A stretch of DNA of 64,000 nucleotides from Apoda limacodes (taxonomy: Eukaryota > Arthropoda > Insecta > Lepidoptera > Limacodidae): NCBI GenBank assembly GCA_946406115.1, contig OX291545.1, positions 1,178,001 through 1,242,000 on the forward strand. The letters run 5' to 3'. Of the stretch, positions 14,265 to 56,714 are shown piece by piece (positions within the stretch are counted from its first letter, which is position 1; each line of letters begins with the position of its first letter). Below the pieces are notes generated by a model. It saw nothing but the letters and a program-made list of their open reading frames with translations, did not search any database and was not told the DNA's origin. The position numbers and the translations under genes are program-made.

Positions 14265-14880
14265 TCATGTACGTATGTCTTTTTCAATATCGTCATACAT
14301 AATCACAACCTTATCATCTGGGTGTGCCTGTGCTGTCTGTGCGTAAACCTGTATCATCTTCAGAGAATATGTCTTGGTAATTCTGAGTATAAGGTACGCT
14401 AACCCGCCAACACCTTGGGAGAGTATGTCACCTTCCCGGAAGAAGAACAAGTTGCCGGATTTGAGCAATATCGAGTCATCCCCCTGTCTTCGGACTTCAG
14501 ATAGCCCTATTATATCCCAGCACAGCTTGTATACTTCTTGTTCCAGCTCAAAAATCTTTTCGTCATACCTCAAAGAGCGTGCATTGTTCGTTGCCAGGGC
14601 TAGTTGTCGGTGTTTGTGGTAACCGGAACTCTGCGGGGATTCTTTACAACCCCTGACCCACCGTTACATTGACCGCTACCATAATCAGAACAAGCGGAGC
14701 TGTCGGTGACTAGGGGCCGTGGTTCTTGTGCAATGCATAAGGGGGGTTTTGCCTTTCATCGCAGATTGATGTTTAATACTCCCTCAGTATGGTACTGCTG
14801 CCCACCATCTAGTATATCCCTTGGTCGCCTCGTACGACGCCCACGGGAGGATGTGGGGTGGTATTATTCTGCTCTGCCGA
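14265..14880 (-). pseudogene. RTE-type LINE: 5' region and endonuclease N-terminus, inverted fragment
   Basis: On the minus strand a 5' leader (about 14880-14611) is followed by the start of an AP-endonuclease-like domain. After ATNNARSLRYDEK come WDIIGLSEVRRQGDD (the conserved E of SEVR), KSGNLFFFREG and ILRITKTYSLKMIQVYA (14573-14265), ending near YDDIEK. Compared with intact RTE proteins, part of the domain after the GVGG segment is missing, and the coding sequence stops after about 100 residues. The fragment lies head-to-tail with the plus-strand 3' fragment that starts near 14881. Confidence 0.8.
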
Positions 14881-15110
14881 TACCACACGCTCTCGTCGAA
14901 CCGATAACCGATGCAGAAGAAAGGTTCTCGAGTGGCGCCTACAGATCGGAAGACGAAGCGTGGGTCGGCCTCCTACCAGGTGGACAGACGATCTGCTCAG
15001 AGCCGCAGGAAACGGATGGGCGCGGGCGGCTTATGACGGGTCGTTGTTGAGACATATAGGGGAAGCCGACGTTTAGTAGTGGACATCTTCCGGCAGAAAC
15101 GATTATCAAA
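14881..15110 (+). pseudogene. RTE-type LINE: extreme C-terminus and 3' end
   Basis: At about 14906-15076 a plus-strand frame carries RRSVGRPPTRWTDDLLRAAG and ARAAYDGSLLRHIGEADV. This matches the conserved last residues of RTE-clade ORF2 proteins, whose GRPPTRW..D block I recognise. A short 3' end with AGTAGTGGACATCTTCCGG and an A-rich tail follow at 15080-15123. Everything between the endonuclease and this C-terminus is missing. Confidence 0.8.
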
Positions 15111-15123
15111 AGATTAAAAAAAA

Positions 15124-15539
15124 AATTATTGTTCTAGGTACAATTATTTTTTACCAATATAGATTGTTAAAAACAAATTTATAAATCTAAGTTAACCTAT
15201 ATGTCAATAACCAGTCAATAGATATGATATGAGGAAGGGGAAAAGTATTCCTACTTATTTCTCAACCTTCTACATGAAGGTTCTACATAATATAAGTACT
15301 ATAAAGTTTGAAGACGAGAACTCGTTCCCAACTAAAGGTTCGGAGTGTGTTATGCCAATATCGTGCGGAAGCGGATACCTATACCTAGTGGTGCTTATAC
15401 CACCACCAACTAGACGCGAGAGCTTTAACTTCAAAGGATATTTCGTTTTGGAGCGAATTTATTATTGGATTAAATCTACGAGTGTGTTATTATTGCGCGT
15501 GATGACGGTATTGATTTTTTTATTTAATTAACCTTTTTA
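15124..15539. other. Non-coding
   Basis: A 100-codon plus-strand frame (15229-15531) has no recognisable domain, and nothing around it looks like a gene. Confidence 0.4.
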
Positions 15540-15735
15540 TATTATGCGGTAATTTTCGATTGTGTTTGGGGACGAAGTTGGGATGGTGGCGATCTTAGCG
15601 TCAGTTATGGCGTCCGTTAGTAGCTGAATAACGTTGTCCACTGAGTTAGTATCGCTAAGTTTTAATGAGCCAGGGGTGGGGAGGGTCAAGTTAATGAATT
15701 TTTTGTCCCAGTCGGCTTCGACATAGACTCTGAAG
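15540..15735 (-). pseudogene. Jockey-like LINE ORF2 linker fragment
   Basis: The minus-strand frame reads EADWDKKFINLTLPTP and then a helix-like NVIQLLTDAITDAKIATIP segment. This is the pattern of the endonuclease-to-RT linker in Jockey-type ORF2 proteins: an ADW..F start, then a pair of helices ending before ..IP. Only about 60 residues remain. It adjoins the GC-rich repeat at 15725. Confidence 0.5.
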
Positions 15736-16073
15736 GAGCCTCGGCCCATACAGCGCCCAACGCTCAAGGGCTTCCCGCGGGGGGAGCCTTGGCTTGGGTT
15801 GTCGCTCTCAGGGGCGTCCCTTCGAACAGCGTGAGTCTCGAACCCGAAGGTGAGTCAGCGCCAGGAGGGAGTTCCCCGTTACGCGGGTGGGTTGCGATTG
15901 AGTGGGGGCGAGAAGCGCCCCGGCACTCTTTGAAACTTCGTGTATCCTTGCAGGTGCCGACGAACCCGTCCCCGGGGGGAGGCCCTATTAGGGGAGGTCT
16001 TCATCTGGGGCCATTAGCATGTACCGAGGCCGCCTAGCGATGGTTTTAAGACTGTGCCGACGTCGGTCAGGGG
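15725..16073. repeat. GC-rich interspersed repeat, copy 1
   Basis: This block starts AGACTCTGAAGGAGCCTC and ends near GTCGGTCAGGGG. It matches 29529-29933 at most positions, including CGCGGGGGGAGCC, GAACCCGAAGGTGAGTCAGC and TTCCCCGTTACGCGGGTG. It is far richer in GC than its surroundings, so it is probably the untranslated leader of a retroelement. It lacks about 55 bp present in copy 2. Confidence 0.75.
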
Positions 16074-26676: not shown

Positions 26677-27471
26677 TTACGGAGTTAAGGGTTTGTGCAA
26701 ATGGGTGGCTAGCTTTTAATCCGGCAGACTCATACGTAGTAGTTGTCGGTAGTTGCTCTGATAGCATGGACAATGCTGGTTTTCCGCAAGGCTCTGTGCT
26801 GTCTCCTACCCTGTTTCTACTGCATATCAATGAAATGTTAATCAACAATACTATACAGATGACATCACTGGAGACACTTAATACAAATGCCGTGCAAACA
26901 TCTCTGGTTCCGATATGGAGAAAAAACGCGAAAAACTTGTGTCTCAAATCGAGACCACTCCGACCAAGGTCTCTGAATTGGGACGAAAAAACTTGGTGCA
27001 ATTCAACCCTAAGAAGACACAGGTCTACACGTTCACCGCTAAAAATCCCCATTGACTGTGGCCCCACGATTCCAGAAGACTCCCCTCTCCATCTCCAAAA
27101 GCATTGGGATCCTTGGTGATGACATTCTAGCGATGTTCTGATCTGAGATCATTTGCAAGACAAGGTGAAGCTGGCGTCCAAAAAACTTCGTGTACTCAAC
27201 AGAGCGAAGCAGTACTTCACTTCGGGGCTAAGGTTGCTGCTTTACAAGTCGCAAATCCGGCCCCATATGGAGTACTGCTTCCATCTCTTGGCGGGTGCAC
27301 CCGAATACCAGCTTGAATCTTTTGACTCGGTTCAACGACGGGCTGTGAGAATCGTCGACAGTCCCAAACTCACAAGCCATATCAAGCCCTTAAGACTGAG
27401 GAGAGACTTTGCCTCCCTGTGTGTGTTCTACCGCTTGTATAATTGGACGTGTTCTGAAAAATTGTTTGAAA
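26677..27471 (+). pseudogene. LINE-A copy 2: RT palm to thumb, broken, 3'-truncated
   Basis: This segment continues LINE-A after the nested insert, with GFPQGSVLSPTLFLLHIN (26773 on). The YADD region is deleted: the intact copy's CATTGCTATGCAGATGAC is reduced to ATACAGATGAC, removing the Tyr-Ala context. Frameshifts follow. From 27153 a clean frame reads QDKVKLASKKLRVLNRAKQY to a SLCVFYRLYN segment. Similarity to the copy at 27-1184 stops at about 27471, so the 3' end is missing. Confidence 0.87.
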
Positions 27472-29528
27472 TTTCGTACGTGTACGGACAAATCCGTACA
27501 TATGGCAACACTGTGCCATCATCTCTCAAAGATTTGCAGCTGATATCATGTTTGCATTGCATGGTTCAGTTTTTTTTTAACCAGTTCAATAACGAATCTC
27601 TAGATGACTTAAATGTCATATCAAATACATCCAATAGATATTTTGAATTTAGACAGATATGGTGGTGGTTAAATATTTCAGTTGTACTTTAGAAGTAAGA
27701 GCGCACCTACCTTTTACTGTCAATCCATAAATTGGGACATTCTCTTAGGGAACTTTTTAGGGGAATTGATATTTTAACTGTTCTTTGCCAATATATCTAC
27801 ATTTGTATAATGCAAAAATTGGCATTTATTTGCTTTATTATTTTATTTGTAATAAGGAATTGAAAAAATATAAAAAATAACTAGGTACAGAGTTTCGTCA
27901 TTCAAAATATTTGTAAATGTAAATAATGACATATTATTTTTTACCTTATATTTCATTCTTAATATTTAATTTATTTATATAATTGATTACAGAAATAAAT
28001 TATATTACTAATACGAAATAAGTCTTGTTACTAGTATCATTGAAATAATCTAGAAAATAAAACCTGAAAATAGGATAATGCGCAGCACTAGTCACGTTAC
28101 CCTTATGTATAAATTTAGTCACAGCTTTATCATTTCTCAACTTAGTCTTTTTAACTTAGTTTGCGTCAGGTCACGTGTCCTAATCGTGGAAATTCGTAAG
28201 ACGGAAACCGTAATGCCACGCCTATTATAATTTTTATTTTTAGTATTCGCGATTATGAGTAGTACAGGGAGGTTGGATATGGAATTTTAATTCTATGACA
28301 GATTGCGATGTCAAATATACTACGTCAAAAAAGTAAATAAACATTATTATTTCTTGACAATGTCAAAGACATGTCTTGTGACATATTTGAGTGTTAAGCG
28401 CGAATTTTTTTTATATAGCTGTATCATTCGCCTAATTTTTAGTAATACATTACTTTTAAATTTAATGTAATTTTATTCTTCAATTCAATAAAATAAAAAT
28501 AGTATTTTGTCAAAAAATCGCTTTTTTTTCTAAATATTTAATAAAGTATGGTATATACAGAAACCACTGGAAGATATGTTATGTTAAGCATTTTATCACC
28601 TATCATATGACACCTTATTTGTTGAAATCGGATAAGGGGCTATTGAGAAATTAACCAAACCCCGATAACCGGTTTTCGCATTTTTAATATATATTTTATA
28701 AACTAAGAATTAAGAAAATATCTATCTTAATTGAATTAAAGCCCAAAAATTTGGGTATGCCATCACCTTAAATTGATAACTCCACGCATTCCTGAGAAAA
28801 TAGGCTTGACAGACCGACAGACAGACAGACTACAAAAGTGGTCCTGCGTTTTTTCTATTGATCTACGGAACCCTAAAAATGTAGGAGTAGGCTGTGTGTG
28901 TTATAGGTGCCATATTTGCCAAATATACTTCAGGTTTTTATATGTTTTATTTGTAGGTTCGTAAGTTATGGAAGTGACAAAATCTATTTTTGCCAACACC
29001 TGTCACTTCCCTTTGTTTGTATTTGACCAAGGACGCCCTTACCGGCATAATATTTCAATCATTTATCTGTTGTCTTCAGATTTACACAGGTTGGCGGTTC
29101 AGCTTCCCAGGGCGAATATTAAGTGATCCTTGGGTTCGGGAACCCGTTCATCCTGCCGGCGGCCAGCGGTCAGCCGTTTCATCTGGTCTCCCTGACCTCC
29201 GTACCAGCATGACGCGTCTACGCTGGGCAATGACAGCCACAAGCACGGTCGGACCTCCGCTGTCCGCGCAGCGAATCCTCAGGAGCTCTGGCAACCTTAC
29301 TCACCGCCAGGAACACAACACTACTTAATGTTAGCGTCATTATGGCCACGGTTTTCTCTAAGATACTTCCCTAGTTCGGGCTGCTCATTCGAGCAAGTAC
29401 TCGCTATGCCCCGTTTTAATGATTCAGGTGAAGTACTTGCTGTGCCCTACCCTAATAATTTTTTTTTTCTGAACTGACTATGCAGTTGGCTGTTGCAGCC
29501 ATTATGCTTCACCGGGCTTTTAGGGGCG
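27472..29528. other. Non-coding, with repeat scraps and a GC-richer leader-like block
   Basis: 28745-28885 is a fragment of the lepidopteran-type repeat (TTCCTGAGAAAATAGGCTTG, GACAGACAGACAGAC, ACGGAACCCTAAAAA). From 29095 to 29528 the sequence is GC-richer, with a plus frame of 112 codons (28990-29328) showing no domain signature. It may be part of the same element as the GC-rich repeat that follows. Confidence 0.4.
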
Positions 29529-31940: not shown

Positions 31941-32813
31941 ATTTTATTTATTTATTTATTATTAACATTATTACAGACTGACAGGAAACCCCAACGCGTC
32001 TATAATCAAGTAACATTAATTAACTATACATACTAACTTACTAAACAAAATTTACATGGAAACACAAGAAAAACATATTGTAGTAAACATATAAAACAAC
32101 AAAAAAGAAATAGGCACTAGTAACTAACTGCATGGTAACTTATAAATTAAGAAAGTTTTTTACATTTGATAAGAAAGAATTAAGATAAAATCAAGGGACA
32201 GTCAATATTCGAATTATTAATTATTTTTCGACAAGTGGAGGCGTGCTGCGGCAATGATTTGTGGCAACCTGTCTGCAAATAGGTCCACATCTTGGGAGGA
32301 AAGTGAGTTGAGGGGCATGAGCGTGCGCGCCTTTGGCGCATTTGCACTGGCTGCGGTGCGGGCTCCCGAGCCAGCCAGCAGTGGCCGCCGCCGACGCGGG
32401 CCACCATCCGCAGCCGTACCCCGCATCGCCCTACTGGGAACGTTTAGGCTGATATCAGCTAATGCTGATGGATTGTCTAGTTTATTATTAAAAAGTAGCC
32501 AATATTGGATAATTGCCTGTAGTTTCCTTCGCAGCTCCAAAGTGTCCAGCCCTATCATGCCCGTGACAAACAGTGAGGGATATAGACGTGGGTAGTACCC
32601 GTACTTCTTCTCATAGACGAATCTGCAAAATTTTTTGTGGATTTTTTCGATTATCGTCACATATTTACTCTCTCTAGGGTCCCAGATTAAAGCATTATAT
32701 TCGAGGCGACTTCTAACATAGGCATCGTACAATATAATAGCTGGTTTGGTGTCTTCAAACATATATGTTTGCCGCATTATGAATCCCAGTGTTTTGTTCG
32801 CCGTTTTTGTCAC
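31941..32813 (-). mobile_element. Truncated non-LTR retrotransposon (3' end)
   Basis: On the minus strand the RT C-terminal frame (32813-32217) is followed by about 275 bp of 3' UTR and a (TAAA)n-like tail (TTTATTTATTTATTTATT on the plus strand at 31945-31962). Sequence upstream of 32813 is unrelated, so it is 5'-truncated. Confidence 0.75.
32217..32813 (-). CDS. Non-LTR retrotransposon RT, C-terminal fragment
   Basis: This is a 198-codon frame without an internal stop. It opens with TANKTLGFIMRQT and a YDAYVRSRLEYNALIWDP segment, then IIEKIHKKFCRFVYEKKYGYYP. This is the post-palm region of Jockey/CR1-like RT proteins, in which a conserved VRS.LEY..I.W.P block precedes an I..IQ..F.R helix. 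The last ~75 residues are Ala/Arg-rich (RRRRPLLAGSGARTAA) and are compositionally unlike the rest. The catalytic domain is missing. The first codon marks the truncation point, not a true start. Confidence 0.8.
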   Translation of the reverse strand: MTKTANKTLGFIMRQTYMFEDTKPAIILYDAYVRSRLEYNALIWDPRESKYVTIIEKIHKKFCRFVYEKKYGYYPRLYPSLFVTGMIGLDTLELRRKLQAIIQYWLLFNNKLDNPSALADISLNVPSRAMRGTAADGGPRRRRPLLAGSGARTAASANAPKARTLMPLNSLSSQDVDLFADRLPQIIAAARLHLSKNN

Positions 32814-32815
32814 GT

Positions 32816-33009
32816 TTAAAAACTTATACCTTGTCCTTTCCAGTTACAAGACTTAAAGACATCAGTGCGATTGTAAACAGTTTCAAGGACATTCCCCGTT
32901 TCACTCCTTTTTGTGGCTAGATAGGTCGTGTGACTGTTTTGAAGAACTGATTTCGTTGTCGAATCACACAGACATCTCAAACACTTCGACGTATTGAGAT
33001 TTTCCCGTT
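32816..33009. other. Short spacer without supported genes
   Basis: The frames here have no recognisable domain. Confidence 0.3.
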
Positions 33010-52699: not shown

Positions 52700-53288
52700 T
52701 ATATTTACATTCATTAATCCTAATATTTTTCATATTGGTGTCTTATTTAATGCACACTTAAATTTAAGAGTTCGTTTCACATAAATAAAATATAAGACAT
52801 TAAAAAGATTTCTTATGGAATGGTTTTTTGTACAAAATCAAATACAATCCCCACCGCTCGGGTAGAAGAAAAATTACAAATCACAATGTTTTTATGATGT
52901 ATAATCATAAGGGGGAAACCCTACGGGGATTCCCCTAACTACTCTACATTCTTCCCTAAACTTACCGCGACTAGTCTGTACATTGTACGAGTGCCTCGAG
53001 CGAAAGTCTCACTTTCATACTCTCCGAGCCCTTGAAATATATTGAAAAATAGACTCATTACTACCTAAGTTTACAATTTACAAATAAGGTACTCTTTTAA
53101 AACCAAAACACGATATAGAATTAGTCCTCACTGGTCAAACGTACACCGAACTTCGAATACTAGAGTCACTAACCGCTAGAGCACTACGTCCATCACAATG
53201 TTCTTCCTCCACAGAAAACATAATGGAATGAAGTATTATTGCTAGAATTACAAGATCACAAATGACTGATACAGTTGACGGACCGTAC
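52700..53288 (-). other. Probable 3' UTR of the LRR receptor gene
   Basis: This stretch lies directly downstream of the last in-frame stop (53289-53291) of the LRR gene. It has no long frame or repeat match. On the minus strand an ATTAAA sits near 52752 and could serve as a variant poly(A) signal. The extent is inferred, not seen. Confidence 0.4.
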
Positions 53289-53759
53289 TCAACAGTTGAA
53301 GGTGTTGGAGTGACTGCAGGAGCGTGGATACTCGTTCATAGCCCGTCCGTACCCATTCTCTGGGATGATGGAGTATTCCGGCTCGCTGTAGTCTGTGTGG
53401 TGATCGTACTCCCTGTCCGAACCACGGGGAAACCCAATCATAGTCTCAGAGTTCCGTATGTAGCCGTTTTCCTGTTTCCTCGAGTATCGAGTGTCAAGGT
53501 TCCGCTGAAAGTTTTCGGGATGGCAGACGACACCGTTACGGTTTTTCTTTTTGTCTGGAAGGGAACGCAGCGAGCCGTTGTTGAGGTGATGAACCGGAGC
53601 GCCATTGTTGAGGGTAAGAGGCTGATGCGGACGCGCCTCGCTGCCGATGTACGTGAACCCGTTAGCTGGCAGCGTGCCGCCGCCCCCCGAGCGCGGGGCC
53701 CGTCGCCCGGACCCCTGGCCCGACATGAAGAACACGCTCGGGGAGGCGTAAAGCTCTAG
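53289..53759 (-). CDS. In-frame C-terminal extension of the LRR receptor (candidate readthrough product)
   Basis: Directly after the TAG at 53762-53760 the same reading frame continues for 156 codons to a TGA at 53291-53289. It looks translated. Codon choice strongly favours C or G at third positions (AAC, TAC, GAG, GGC, TCC), although the surrounding DNA is AT-rich. The peptide has no low-complexity runs apart from a short Gly stretch (SGGGG). It contains repeated NG-aromatic motifs (ANGFTY, ENGYIRN, ENGYGR), a basic KKKNRN patch, and Tyr motifs (SEPEYSII fits YxxI). It ends SHSNTFNC. It would lengthen the cytoplasmic tail from 59 to 216 residues, counting the residue inserted at the stop. 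No known domain is recognised. How it is reached, by readthrough or by splicing, is open. Confidence 0.75.
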   Translation of the reverse strand, partial: LELYASPSVFFMSGQGSGRRAPRSGGGGTLPANGFTYIGSEARPHQPLTLNNGAPVHHLNNGSLRSLPDKKKNRNGVVCHPENFQRNLDTRYSRKQENGYIRNSETMIGFPRGSDREYDHHTDYSEPEYSIIPENGYGRAMNEYPRSCSHSNTFNC

Positions 53760-53765
53760 CTACAG
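53683..53765 (-). promoter_or_regulatory. Candidate stop-codon readthrough element (TAG-CTAG plus nested stem-loop)
   Basis: The stop context is CTG TAG CTAG AG. Stop followed by CTAG is the best-known strong readthrough context in animals, usually with TGA. The downstream stem begins 14 nt after the TAG: 53745-53735 (CTCCCCGAGCG) pairs with 53693-53683 (CGCTCGGGGGG), 11 bp with one G-T, extendable by two. Inside it, 53715-53695 forms an 8-bp hairpin, GGGGTCCG and CGGGCCCC around GGCGA. Stable stem-loops after leaky stops are documented in Drosophila (for example headcase). Folding energy was not computed. Confidence 0.65.
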
Positions 53766-55286
53766 TTCCGTTACCGGAATCGGCCTTAAGCCGGTAGTGT
53801 GTAGAGGCGCCGGGTACTGCGACGGAATTCCACGCACTATGCAATCTTCTTCTGTGGAAATGGGTTTGTGATATTCGTTTTGTCGGGCTTTATTCCATTT
53901 GTAGTCTTTTAGTTTCTCTTGCATGCTTTTGCGGTATCTGTACAATATGAGCACTAAGGTAGCAACAGTCGCAACACAAGCGACAACGATTACACAAATG
54001 ATAGTCTGTTGTCGTGTGTCATGCAAGACACAGCCCAAGTCGTCAGCTGTTAATGCCTTGAGGTACTTGTCTTTCAAATTTTCCGGTGCAGCGCACTGGA
54101 TCTCTGAAAAGTTGCTTTTCTCGTGAAGAAGAACTTGCAGCCACAGTACCTGACAATTGCACATTACAGGGTTGTCAGCCAAATCTAGCTGTCTCAATTC
54201 TTTTCCTACAAAGACGTTTTCGCTAAGGCTCATAATTGCGTTTTCTCTAAGTGTTACATGTTTAAGTTTTGGCAGTCCTAGAAGTGTTGTTTCCTCTATA
54301 ATTGTTAGTTTCTTGTTATTGGACAAAATTATACTTTCTAAATTGATGTTATCTTCAAATGCACCTTTAGCGATGCGTTCAAGTTGTGTTGCACCCGTAA
54401 TGTCTAACAATTTTAGATTTTTCAAACCTCTAAATGAATGACTCTCTAAAGCCAGAAAATCGTTTTGACCTATATAGAGTTCTTCTAGTCTAATAAGACT
54501 AGATAGCTGCTGCGTAGGTACAACGCTCAGTCTGTTCCCAAATAGGTTTAAACTTCTCAATCCCGGAAGACCTTTAAACGCATTATCGCTAATATTGAAG
54601 AGTCCAGCTCCATTCAAATCTAGAACAGACAGTCTGTTAAGGCCTGCAAAAGCGTCATCTGGCAAGTGGAAGAATACGTTTAAACCTACATGTAACTCTG
54701 CAAGGCTTCCTAAAAGGCTAAACGATGGAGTTGGAACGGTACTCAGTTGATTATCATCTAGATACAGGATCCGCAACGCCGACAAACCAGCAAAAGCGTT
54801 GGGTTCTATCTTCGATATTCTGTTTTGACCCAGATTCAATTCTTCTAACCTCGACAACGTTGCAAATACTCCACTAGTCAGTTCTTCTAAGAAGTTTCTT
54901 TTTAAATTTAACACTGTTAAGGAATTTAATCCTTGAAAAGTATCATTATTTACAGAAGATATTTTGTTATGGTTTAAATGTATCTCTTGAAGTTTGCGTT
55001 GATATGCAAAGCTCTTCGGTGGTATATTGACGAGATGATTCTGTGACAGGTCCAGGTGTTGCAGCTCGGTGTAGAACTGCATGGAGCTGTCGATGGTTTT
55101 GATTTTGTTGTTGCGGATAATGAGTCGCTGGATGGACGGGTTGAGCGCGATAGGGAGCACGTCCAGGCGGCTTTCCTCGCAGACCACTACCAGGGTGTCA
55201 TCGTTGCAGCTGCAGCCGCTAGGACAGTTTGCGAGAGCTGCCGCGCCGCTGTCGCAACACACCATTGCTAGTGACACTAGCAACAC
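53760..55286 (-). CDS. trn/caps: Leucine-rich repeat transmembrane receptor, Tartan/Capricious family (last large coding exon)
   Basis: Tartan and Capricious are cell-surface adhesion proteins that give cells positional and target identity. Residues here are counted from the exon edge at 55286. A hydrophobic signal segment (VLLVSLAMVC) is followed by an LRRNT cap (CPSGCSC...C), about 14 LRRs of 24 residues (roughly 50-375, LxxLxLxxN pattern), and an LRRCT cap (NPVMCNCQVLWL...C...C). A transmembrane helix lies at 428-449 (TIICVIVVACVATVATLVLI...) and a 59-residue tail ends PIPVTEL. The DVLPIALNPSIQRL and KTIDSSMQFY segments and the 14-repeat count are what I recall of Drosophila Trn/Caps. I cannot say which of the two paralogues it is. 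The frame opens with GTG after a splice site, so the start Met is in an upstream exon. The -TEL end fits a class I PDZ ligand. Confidence 0.85.
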   Translation of the reverse strand: MLLVSLAMVCCDSGAAALANCPSGCSCNDDTLVVVCEESRLDVLPIALNPSIQRLIIRNNKIKTIDSSMQFYTELQHLDLSQNHLVNIPPKSFAYQRKLQEIHLNHNKISSVNNDTFQGLNSLTVLNLKRNFLEELTSGVFATLSRLEELNLGQNRISKIEPNAFAGLSALRILYLDDNQLSTVPTPSFSLLGSLAELHVGLNVFFHLPDDAFAGLNRLSVLDLNGAGLFNISDNAFKGLPGLRSLNLFGNRLSVVPTQQLSSLIRLEELYIGQNDFLALESHSFRGLKNLKLLDITGATQLERIAKGAFEDNINLESIILSNNKKLTIIEETTLLGLPKLKHVTLRENAIMSLSENVFVGKELRQLDLADNPVMCNCQVLWLQVLLHEKSNFSEIQCAAPENLKDKYLKALTADDLGCVLHDTRQQTIICVIVVACVATVATLVLILYRYRKSMQEKLKDYKWNKARQNEYHKPISTEEDCIVRGIPSQYPAPLHTTGLRPIPVTEL

Positions 55287-55307
55287 CTGAAACAGACAGA
55301 CAACAGT
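55287..55307 (-). other. 3' splice site (acceptor) of the LRR exon
   Basis: On the minus strand the exon is preceded by ACTGTTGTCTGTCTGTTTCAG. This pyrimidine-rich tract ends in CAG, and a TAA in the coding frame lies at 55310-55308. No ATG precedes the LRR frame, so an intron must end here. The first ATG inside the exon (55265-55263) would leave too short a signal peptide. Confidence 0.8.
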
Positions 55308-56714
55308 TTAGTTATTGGTCCATTAAAATTAAAGATATTCGTTTTTGTGGGACAATCTTCACTACTTTTTATCTTAAAAGAAAGATACTGCGAAAAAACT
55401 TTTATAATGGTTTGGTATTATGCAGATATTTTTGATTTTTTTATCAAACATAAAGGCAGTTTTGTGTATCTTGTCTTCCCATATAAGCTTGTCGTTCACA
55501 CGCTTGAACAAATAAAACGTTATGATGTAAATTGGATATGAATGACAAATTACAAATACGTGTATGACAGAAGTTGAGTTCAGTAAAATGTTCAAACATA
55601 ATCAAGTAAATTACGTTATTCACTCGAGCTTACAATGGCTGAAAATAAATTGCCATCAAATTCGTACATACATAATGACAGCACCAATTTATTTCAGCTT
55701 CTCAAGGAATACGGAAAATATTTTGAATATGCTGAAGTGGCATACGAACTGATTGCTTTCTATTAATAATTTAAGATTCGGTAGGTTCTTTCTACTTGGT
55801 TGGTAGGTCTTACTTATGAGAAACGTCTTTAAAAGTTAATACTATGAAATAAAATTGAAACTTTGCGTTGTTTCACTTGAATGAAGAATACGCAGTAGCT
55901 CCTTTGTTGCAAAGACGGCTGCGCTTTTATTTAGTCTCTCCTGTCCCGTCGTCTGTAACCAAATCTTGCAAGTTAAATTTGACCCACTTTCCGGTGTTTG
56001 ATTGGTTTGAAATTTGGCATACAAATAAATCGAATGACAATGCAATATAATGTCATAGAGCTGGTCTGATCATGGAGCGGGAAAGTGGTCACAGGACCTC
56101 CATAACTCGAAAGCTGGTAATGTACGAGTTATAGGACATATAAAGCTACCTTAGTCCACATTCACTGTATCATAGGGTCACCACCTGTCACGCAGGACTA
56201 AAGTCCCCACATATAATGTGAGTGTGTACCCAGCCACTGGTAAACCCCTTCTGGGACTAAGAACTGTAACGTTACACATACATACACATAATCTAACAAT
56301 AATAATTATCGCAGCAAACCATCGGATTGAAACTGTTATTTTAAAGTCGAATGTATTCCTTGTAGGGAGTGTTGTCAAACAGCAGTTGTATTTTGAATAG
56401 AAGAGATGATTTCTTTACTTGAAATCTTATAACACATTTAGCAACAGGAAATCGTGACGTGGCCAGGGAGCGAGTTGTTATAACACAATAATAACATACT
56501 TTATGTTGAAAATATAATTTCCGATAAGTTTCTAATATAATTTTTGTTAGTTTTAGTGGTTGATGCTTAGGAACACTAATAAACACACAAAATATTTACA
56601 AATATTGTTTATTTAATTAGGAATGTAGTTTATTTTTGTGAATATCATGTTATATTTTATTTCCGAATATTAAACTCAATTTTTGCATTTTAATACTTTT
56701 TACCGGCTTGACAT
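55308..56714 (-). other. Probable intron of the LRR gene
   Basis: AT-rich DNA upstream of the acceptor. Short frames on both strands show no domain. The extent depends on where the preceding exon lies. Confidence 0.45.

Follow-up and report, generated by a model that had tools for sequence, protein, structure and literature searches.

Candidate programmed stop codon readthrough in a Capricious/Tartan-type receptor gene of Apoda limacodes (Lepidoptera, Limacodidae)

With regard to stop codon readthrough in transmembrane receptors of the LRR type, Drosophila caps stands closest to the locus described here. FlyBase curators cite it as an example in which a readthrough extension of 240 aa lengthens the similarity to Trn, and the unextended protein of Trn contains a region that resembles the caps extension (excerpt of PMC4528330). 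For a further fly LRR gene, 2mit, a readthrough extension of 13 residues has been predicted (excerpt of PMC3786989). In four mammalian genes, OPRL1, OPRK1, AQP4 and MAPK10, the tetranucleotide CUAG drives readthrough of UGA, and when the stop of the OPRL1 context is changed from UGA to UAG, readthrough falls about three-fold (excerpt of PMC4132726). The first-pass annotation of the stretch of DNA analyzed here had left it unsettled whether an orthologue of its candidate gene was already published; the answer is given by fly caps, which is described as a readthrough gene, and this description implies that readthrough of this kind, and very likely readthrough of this gene, is already known in flies (excerpt of PMC4528330). 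In the main texts of Dunn 2013 (fly ribosome profiling) and Jungreis 2016, caps is not mentioned, and in the open-licence literature we found no paper that treats lepidopteran readthrough of this gene.

The window, i.e., the whole stretch of 64,000 nucleotides that was analyzed, contains on its minus strand an open reading frame (53763..55286) constituting the main coding exon of an LRR transmembrane receptor of Tartan/Capricious type, with LRRs, an LRRCT-like part and a cytoplasmic tail of 60 aa ending in PIPVTEL. The type assignment made in the first-pass annotation is borne out by a Pfam match to LRR_8 (2.1e-68) and by relatives whose source names are capricious (P0033) and tartan (P0093), while LRRCT scored 14.7 bits, i.e., under its cut-off of 20. 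The layout of Capricious and Tartan, an LRR ectodomain, one transmembrane helix (called by eye) and a short cytoplasmic tail, is present. Just upstream of the frame, at 55290-55287, tttcag suggests an exon acceptor, so that the frame would be a downstream coding exon, and the true start of the receptor probably resides in an upstream exon. The 41 best-ranked homologues share 77-86% identity with the receptor, and the named ones among them are Lepidoptera wherever a species is shown. In a tree of 43 rows (42 homologues drawn from the 120 listed, plus the window, with no Drosophila sequence among the rows), sequences group broadly by insect order, with the window placed within the Lepidoptera and caddisflies neighboring; of its 40 inner branches, 17 have good support and 15 are left open. 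That the tree tracks insect orders fits a single gene inherited by descent. Most likely, the gene is the lepidopteran counterpart of Drosophila caps; possibly, it is co-orthologous to caps and tartan together. Among the 60 solved structures listed out of 362 matches, other LRR proteins were found and none was named Capricious or Tartan.

The C-terminus of the short form, PIPVTEL (53763..53783, minus strand), is conserved. Out of 700 insect homologues found, 120 were listed, and 108 of these end in TEL, 107 of them in VTEL, while 12 (P0001-P0008, P0043, P0082, P0085 and P0109) do not. Named entries with a VTEL or TEL end include moths, butterflies, beetles, a cricket, a stick insect and lice. 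Judged by these protein ends, the position of the first stop is conserved, which indicates that this stop is real and old; the short form has the look of a separate product. All 22 named lepidopteran entries that were picked by hand among the TEL-ended homologues share the VTEL end, and the assembly error at the TAG that the first-pass annotation had considered is accordingly very unlikely. We take VTEL to fit the pattern of a class I PDZ ligand.

The stop itself is a TAG (53760..53762, minus strand), the proposed site of readthrough, and it is directly followed by CTAG (53756..53759), the CTA of which is the first codon of an extension of 156 codons (LELYASPSVFF...HSNTFNC, 53292..53759) that is terminated by a TGA (53289..53291). 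Both tetranucleotide context and frame had been pointed out in the first-pass annotation, and they are read here as described, with TAG at 53762-53760, CTAG at 53759-53756 and an open frame of 156 codons up to the TGA at 53291-53289; what does not stand is its placement of this frame in AT-rich DNA, as GC content amounts to 58% in the extension and 71% in its first 120 nt vs. 36% in the window. When both strands of the window are counted, CTAG follows 18 of the 8103 stop triplets and seven of the 1907 TAGs. Gaps from stop to stop that reach 156 codons number seven out of 8097, this gene's own included. When the extension was shuffled with dinucleotides preserved, 78 of 5000 shuffles (1.6%) stayed open, and since the extension is also GC-rich, openness alone is no more than moderate evidence. 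No domain was found in residues 2-156 of the extension with Pfam up to E 0.1, and none in the extension with NCBIfam up to E 0.001.

Some further open frames were seen in the window. The plus strand opposite the extension (53232-53759) is likewise open, for 175 codons, which we attribute to the GC-rich codon usage of the extension. A region of 48% GC at 14685-16037 (plus strand) holds two frames of more than 110 codons; the one at 14685-15047 (plus strand) gave no Pfam match. The frames at 27147-27692 (plus strand; KSQIRPHMEYCFHLLAGA) and 32217-32843 (minus strand; VRSRLEYNALIWDP) resemble, on visual inspection, the tails of reverse transcriptases from retroelements, and neither matched Pfam at E 0.01.

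The extension recurs in the same frame in 33 protein entries, some of them from one species. A region search with the extension returned nine full-length entries, and a profile search with the extension alone, for which 7991 candidates were scored, returned 25 short frames (12 with lepidopteran names, 13 unnamed). Because species are shared, as by P0006 and P0121, both from Danaus, the entries are not all independent. In an alignment of 34 rows (the window, P0001-P0007, P0043 and the 25 short frames, with P0008, P0082, P0085 and P0109 kept outside as partial or divergent), the C-terminal end is TFNC in 31 rows, TFDC in two and TFSC in one. Blocks such as GFTY, TLNNGAP, LNNG.LRSL, RKQ.N.Y and EPEYS reach 95% identity or more in the rows that cover them, and the 11 codons directly after the stop are invariant in the rows holding them, with LELYASPS in eight of eight and VFF in nine of nine. 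Both pieces could be compared for seven lepidopteran or Lepidoptera-like cases, six of them pairs with equally long longest contigs and one, Leptidea, matched through its species name. Relative to the window, their ectodomains are 79.4-84.4% identical, their tails before the stop 81.4-91.7% and their extensions 71.5-82.4%, and the extension is thus slightly less conserved than the rest. Identity of the extension drops to 47% in the caddisfly Arctopsyche; in the stick insect entry P0085, it is 56% over 36 residues (chosen by eye) after the skipped stop, and the leaf beetle entry P0082 has a short recognizable stretch at that place (E 0.04 in a local comparison). Viral contigs contained no DNA of this region from relatives. 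Coding conservation past the TAG in relatives, which the first-pass annotation had left to comparison, is found at the amino-acid level in all seven cases (the 71.5-82.4% given above), and on these protein alignments the extension is protein-coding.

Programmed readthrough, when defined by conservation as in Jungreis et al. 2016, shows itself in coding sequence that is conserved before as well as after a conserved stop. With the conserved VTEL stop and the conserved in-frame extension behind it, the earlier proposal of programmed readthrough at this TAG is upheld by sequence comparison, and we consider such readthrough probable for the lepidopteran counterpart of caps. Most ribosomes would then halt at the TAG and produce a receptor tail with the conserved end PIPVTEL, while a fraction would place an amino acid at the UAG, favored by the CUAG and probably by a downstream stem-loop. 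Passage of the UAG would add a cytoplasmic tail of 156 aa, conserved as coding sequence at the protein level and ending in SNTFNC. Such a switch of tails would leave a free PDZ-type end on the short form and bury that end in the long form, which may gain tyrosine motifs, e.g., PEYSII, as well as a conserved Cys end. PEYSII or PEYSVI presumably resembles a YxxPhi sorting motif, and it is a testable idea that the long form exchanges the PDZ end for sorting signals. Flies and mosquitoes lose readthrough more often at TAA and TAG, and TGA is enriched among ancient cases (excerpt of PMC5100048), so that the TAG found here is not the typical long-lived type.

The predicted stem-loop is nested and GC-rich, extends over 53683..53745 on the minus strand and begins 14 nt after the stop. 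Its outer stem of 11 bp with one G-U pair (arms 53745-53735 and 53693-53683) and its inner hairpin of 8 bp, again with one G-U pair (arms 53715-53708 and 53702-53695), were read by eye as in the first-pass annotation, and RNAfold agrees in predicting a nested structure across the same stretch. Its z-score is -2.1, and six of 200 dinucleotide shuffles were at least as stable. Shuffles that preserve protein and codon usage gave none as stable in 1000 when codons were drawn from the whole extension (84 and 105 nt), vs. 29 (84 nt) and 36 (105 nt) in 1000 when they were drawn from the local GC-rich part. Along the gene, the segment of lowest energy among 319 (90 nt each, step 6) starts 12 nt past the first base of the TAG. 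Because significance against the locally matched control is about 3%, this predicted structure is suggestive as a readthrough signal rather than proof. A search of Rfam over 53000-55400 gave no match at the gathering score. Among readthrough candidates of mosquito and fly, 9-10% have a predicted structure within 100 nt after the stop (excerpt of PMC5100048).

Alternative splicing is the rival that survives best, and we regard it as unlikely. It would excise a 78-nt intron running from GTGCGT (53837) to the TAG as 3' splice site (53760), thereby removing the stop together with the VRG...VTEL end and joining EEDCI to LELYASPS in frame. A counterpart of this intron (GTGCGT...CTGTAG with TAG as acceptor, 53760..53837, minus strand) is drawn in gene models of relatives. 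The junction EEDCI|LELY is common to five models of lepidopteran type (P0002-P0005 and P0007), P0002 representing 18 member sequences, and near-equivalent junctions occur in the caddisfly entry P0043 (YM|LELY) and the stick insect entry P0085 (DYI|LELF); the corresponding stretch of the window has GT-AG ends and a length that is a multiple of three. On the other hand, there is just one other in-phase GT within 150 nt of the TAG, and it would give an impossible gap of 15 nt, so that gene finders forced past the stop have hardly any alternative. Exactly these five codons are left out in P0006, which proceeds like P0001 from RPIP, while P0001 and P0008 jump elsewhere, P0008 from EEDCI to PLTLNN; in P0082, the stop is bypassed from DYNA to QLSAPPS.

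The splice sites themselves give a divided picture. The donor codon, a Val with its GT, is kept in 32 of the 33 TEL-ended entries that carry the lepidopteran-type motif E[ED]DC, whereas across all orders Val is found in 53 and another residue in 49 of the 102 entries parsed out of the 120 listed (the 49 including one misparse, P0005, 18 entries being unparsed, and the extension mostly not being shown in those orders). The acceptor is preceded by nine pyrimidines in 20 positions, compared to 13 in 20 at the presumed upstream acceptor, a small sample. Regarding the possibility, raised in the first-pass annotation, that transcripts splice the TAG out, models that draw the intron and a conserved donor codon thus speak for it, while the acceptor looks weak.

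The origin of the entries has to be considered as well. All nine full-length entries of the extension are products of annotation and none is a raw-assembly frame, while VTEL ends all 11 Logan entries that are of lepidopteran type, with contigs that may derive either from RNA or from genomic reads; genomic ones could not reveal splicing. In three Logan pairs (P0039/P0127, P0041/P0132 and P0017/P0135), the short frame and the extension frame have an equal longest contig (5040, 5119 and 3005, respectively), from which it follows that stop and extension are probably unspliced neighbors on one contig. For fly caps, FlyBase chose readthrough (excerpt of PMC4528330). The introns in public models are probably mainly repairs by gene finders that hide readthrough.

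Independent translation of the second frame, by reinitiation or from an internal start at a conserved ATG (VFF-ATG-SGG), appears very improbable. Met is present at this position in 30 of the 31 aligned rows that reach it, and ORF callers begin there in most of the 25 extension frames, but conservation also covers the codons that separate the stop from the ATG (LELYASPS and VFF without exception, as noted above) and the caddisfly and stick insect entries carry Leu in place of Met (VFFLPG), both of which disfavor this explanation; a lone cytoplasmic tail without its receptor would moreover make little sense. Least credible of all is a leaky stop faked by A-to-I editing of UAG to UGG, which is named as an alternative in the excerpted text of PMC4528330 with nothing for it in the present data and is not favored by the position of the TAG, which the main stem in the predicted fold does not include, or by a chance frame or assembly error, with which the conservation does not agree (TEL ends in 108 of 120 listed homologues, the alignment of 34 rows and 22 of 22 VTEL ends).

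Under programmed readthrough, the weevil-like relative P0109 constitutes an interesting case. Its residues 500-578 read PVSDL-Y-EEIISTPS at the homologous place and then continue into LPVTGFTY (E 0.005 in a local comparison), i.e., a Tyr occupies the expected position of the stop, and the tail behind it is in frame and extension-like. The tree places P0109 with the weevils on a long branch (0.46), and both an orthologue that has lost the stop and a divergent, tartan-like paralogue are therefore possible. We tentatively raise the idea, for which the odds are somewhat below even, that one leaky stop is older than the separation of the main winged insect orders and has persisted since, switching between a PDZ ligand and a long tail, and that in P0109 this switch has been fixed in the long state.

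Caps and Tartan are involved in the targeting of axons and dendrites as well as in tissue boundaries, with a need for the intracellular domain of Caps that depends on context in flies (excerpt of PMC3873376), and in one model Tartan takes Ten-m off the membrane via endocytosis (excerpt of PMC11034934). If readthrough sets the tail, experiments on the intracellular domain of Caps may have tested only one of two tails. The conserved VTEL end and the extension allow a direct test of which tail does what. In addition, readthrough may be masked in some public lepidopteran gene models by introns that are possibly not real.

When the locus is set beside known systems, it shares with Drosophila headcase (hdc) an RNA structure just downstream of the stop; hdc is another gene, and its structure is reported to trigger readthrough when moved, while the one described here is predicted (excerpts of PMC3609751 and PMC5100048). 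With vertebrate OPRL1, OPRK1, AQP4 and MAPK10 it has in common the CUAG directly after the stop, which is UGA in these genes vs. UAG here, and their extensions are short, with 13 residues in MAPK10 and typically 28 in AQP4 (excerpt of PMC4132726). Drosophila caps encodes the same type of LRR transmembrane receptor with an in-frame C-terminal extension past a stop, the fly extension of 240 aa contrasting with 156 aa here in a comparison of the two by description, and in its close paralogue tartan (trn) the extension-like region sits in the unextended protein. Against this background the mechanism is not new; the present analysis adds the extension of Lepidoptera and of a caddisfly, a VTEL end that is deeply conserved and a caution regarding gene models.
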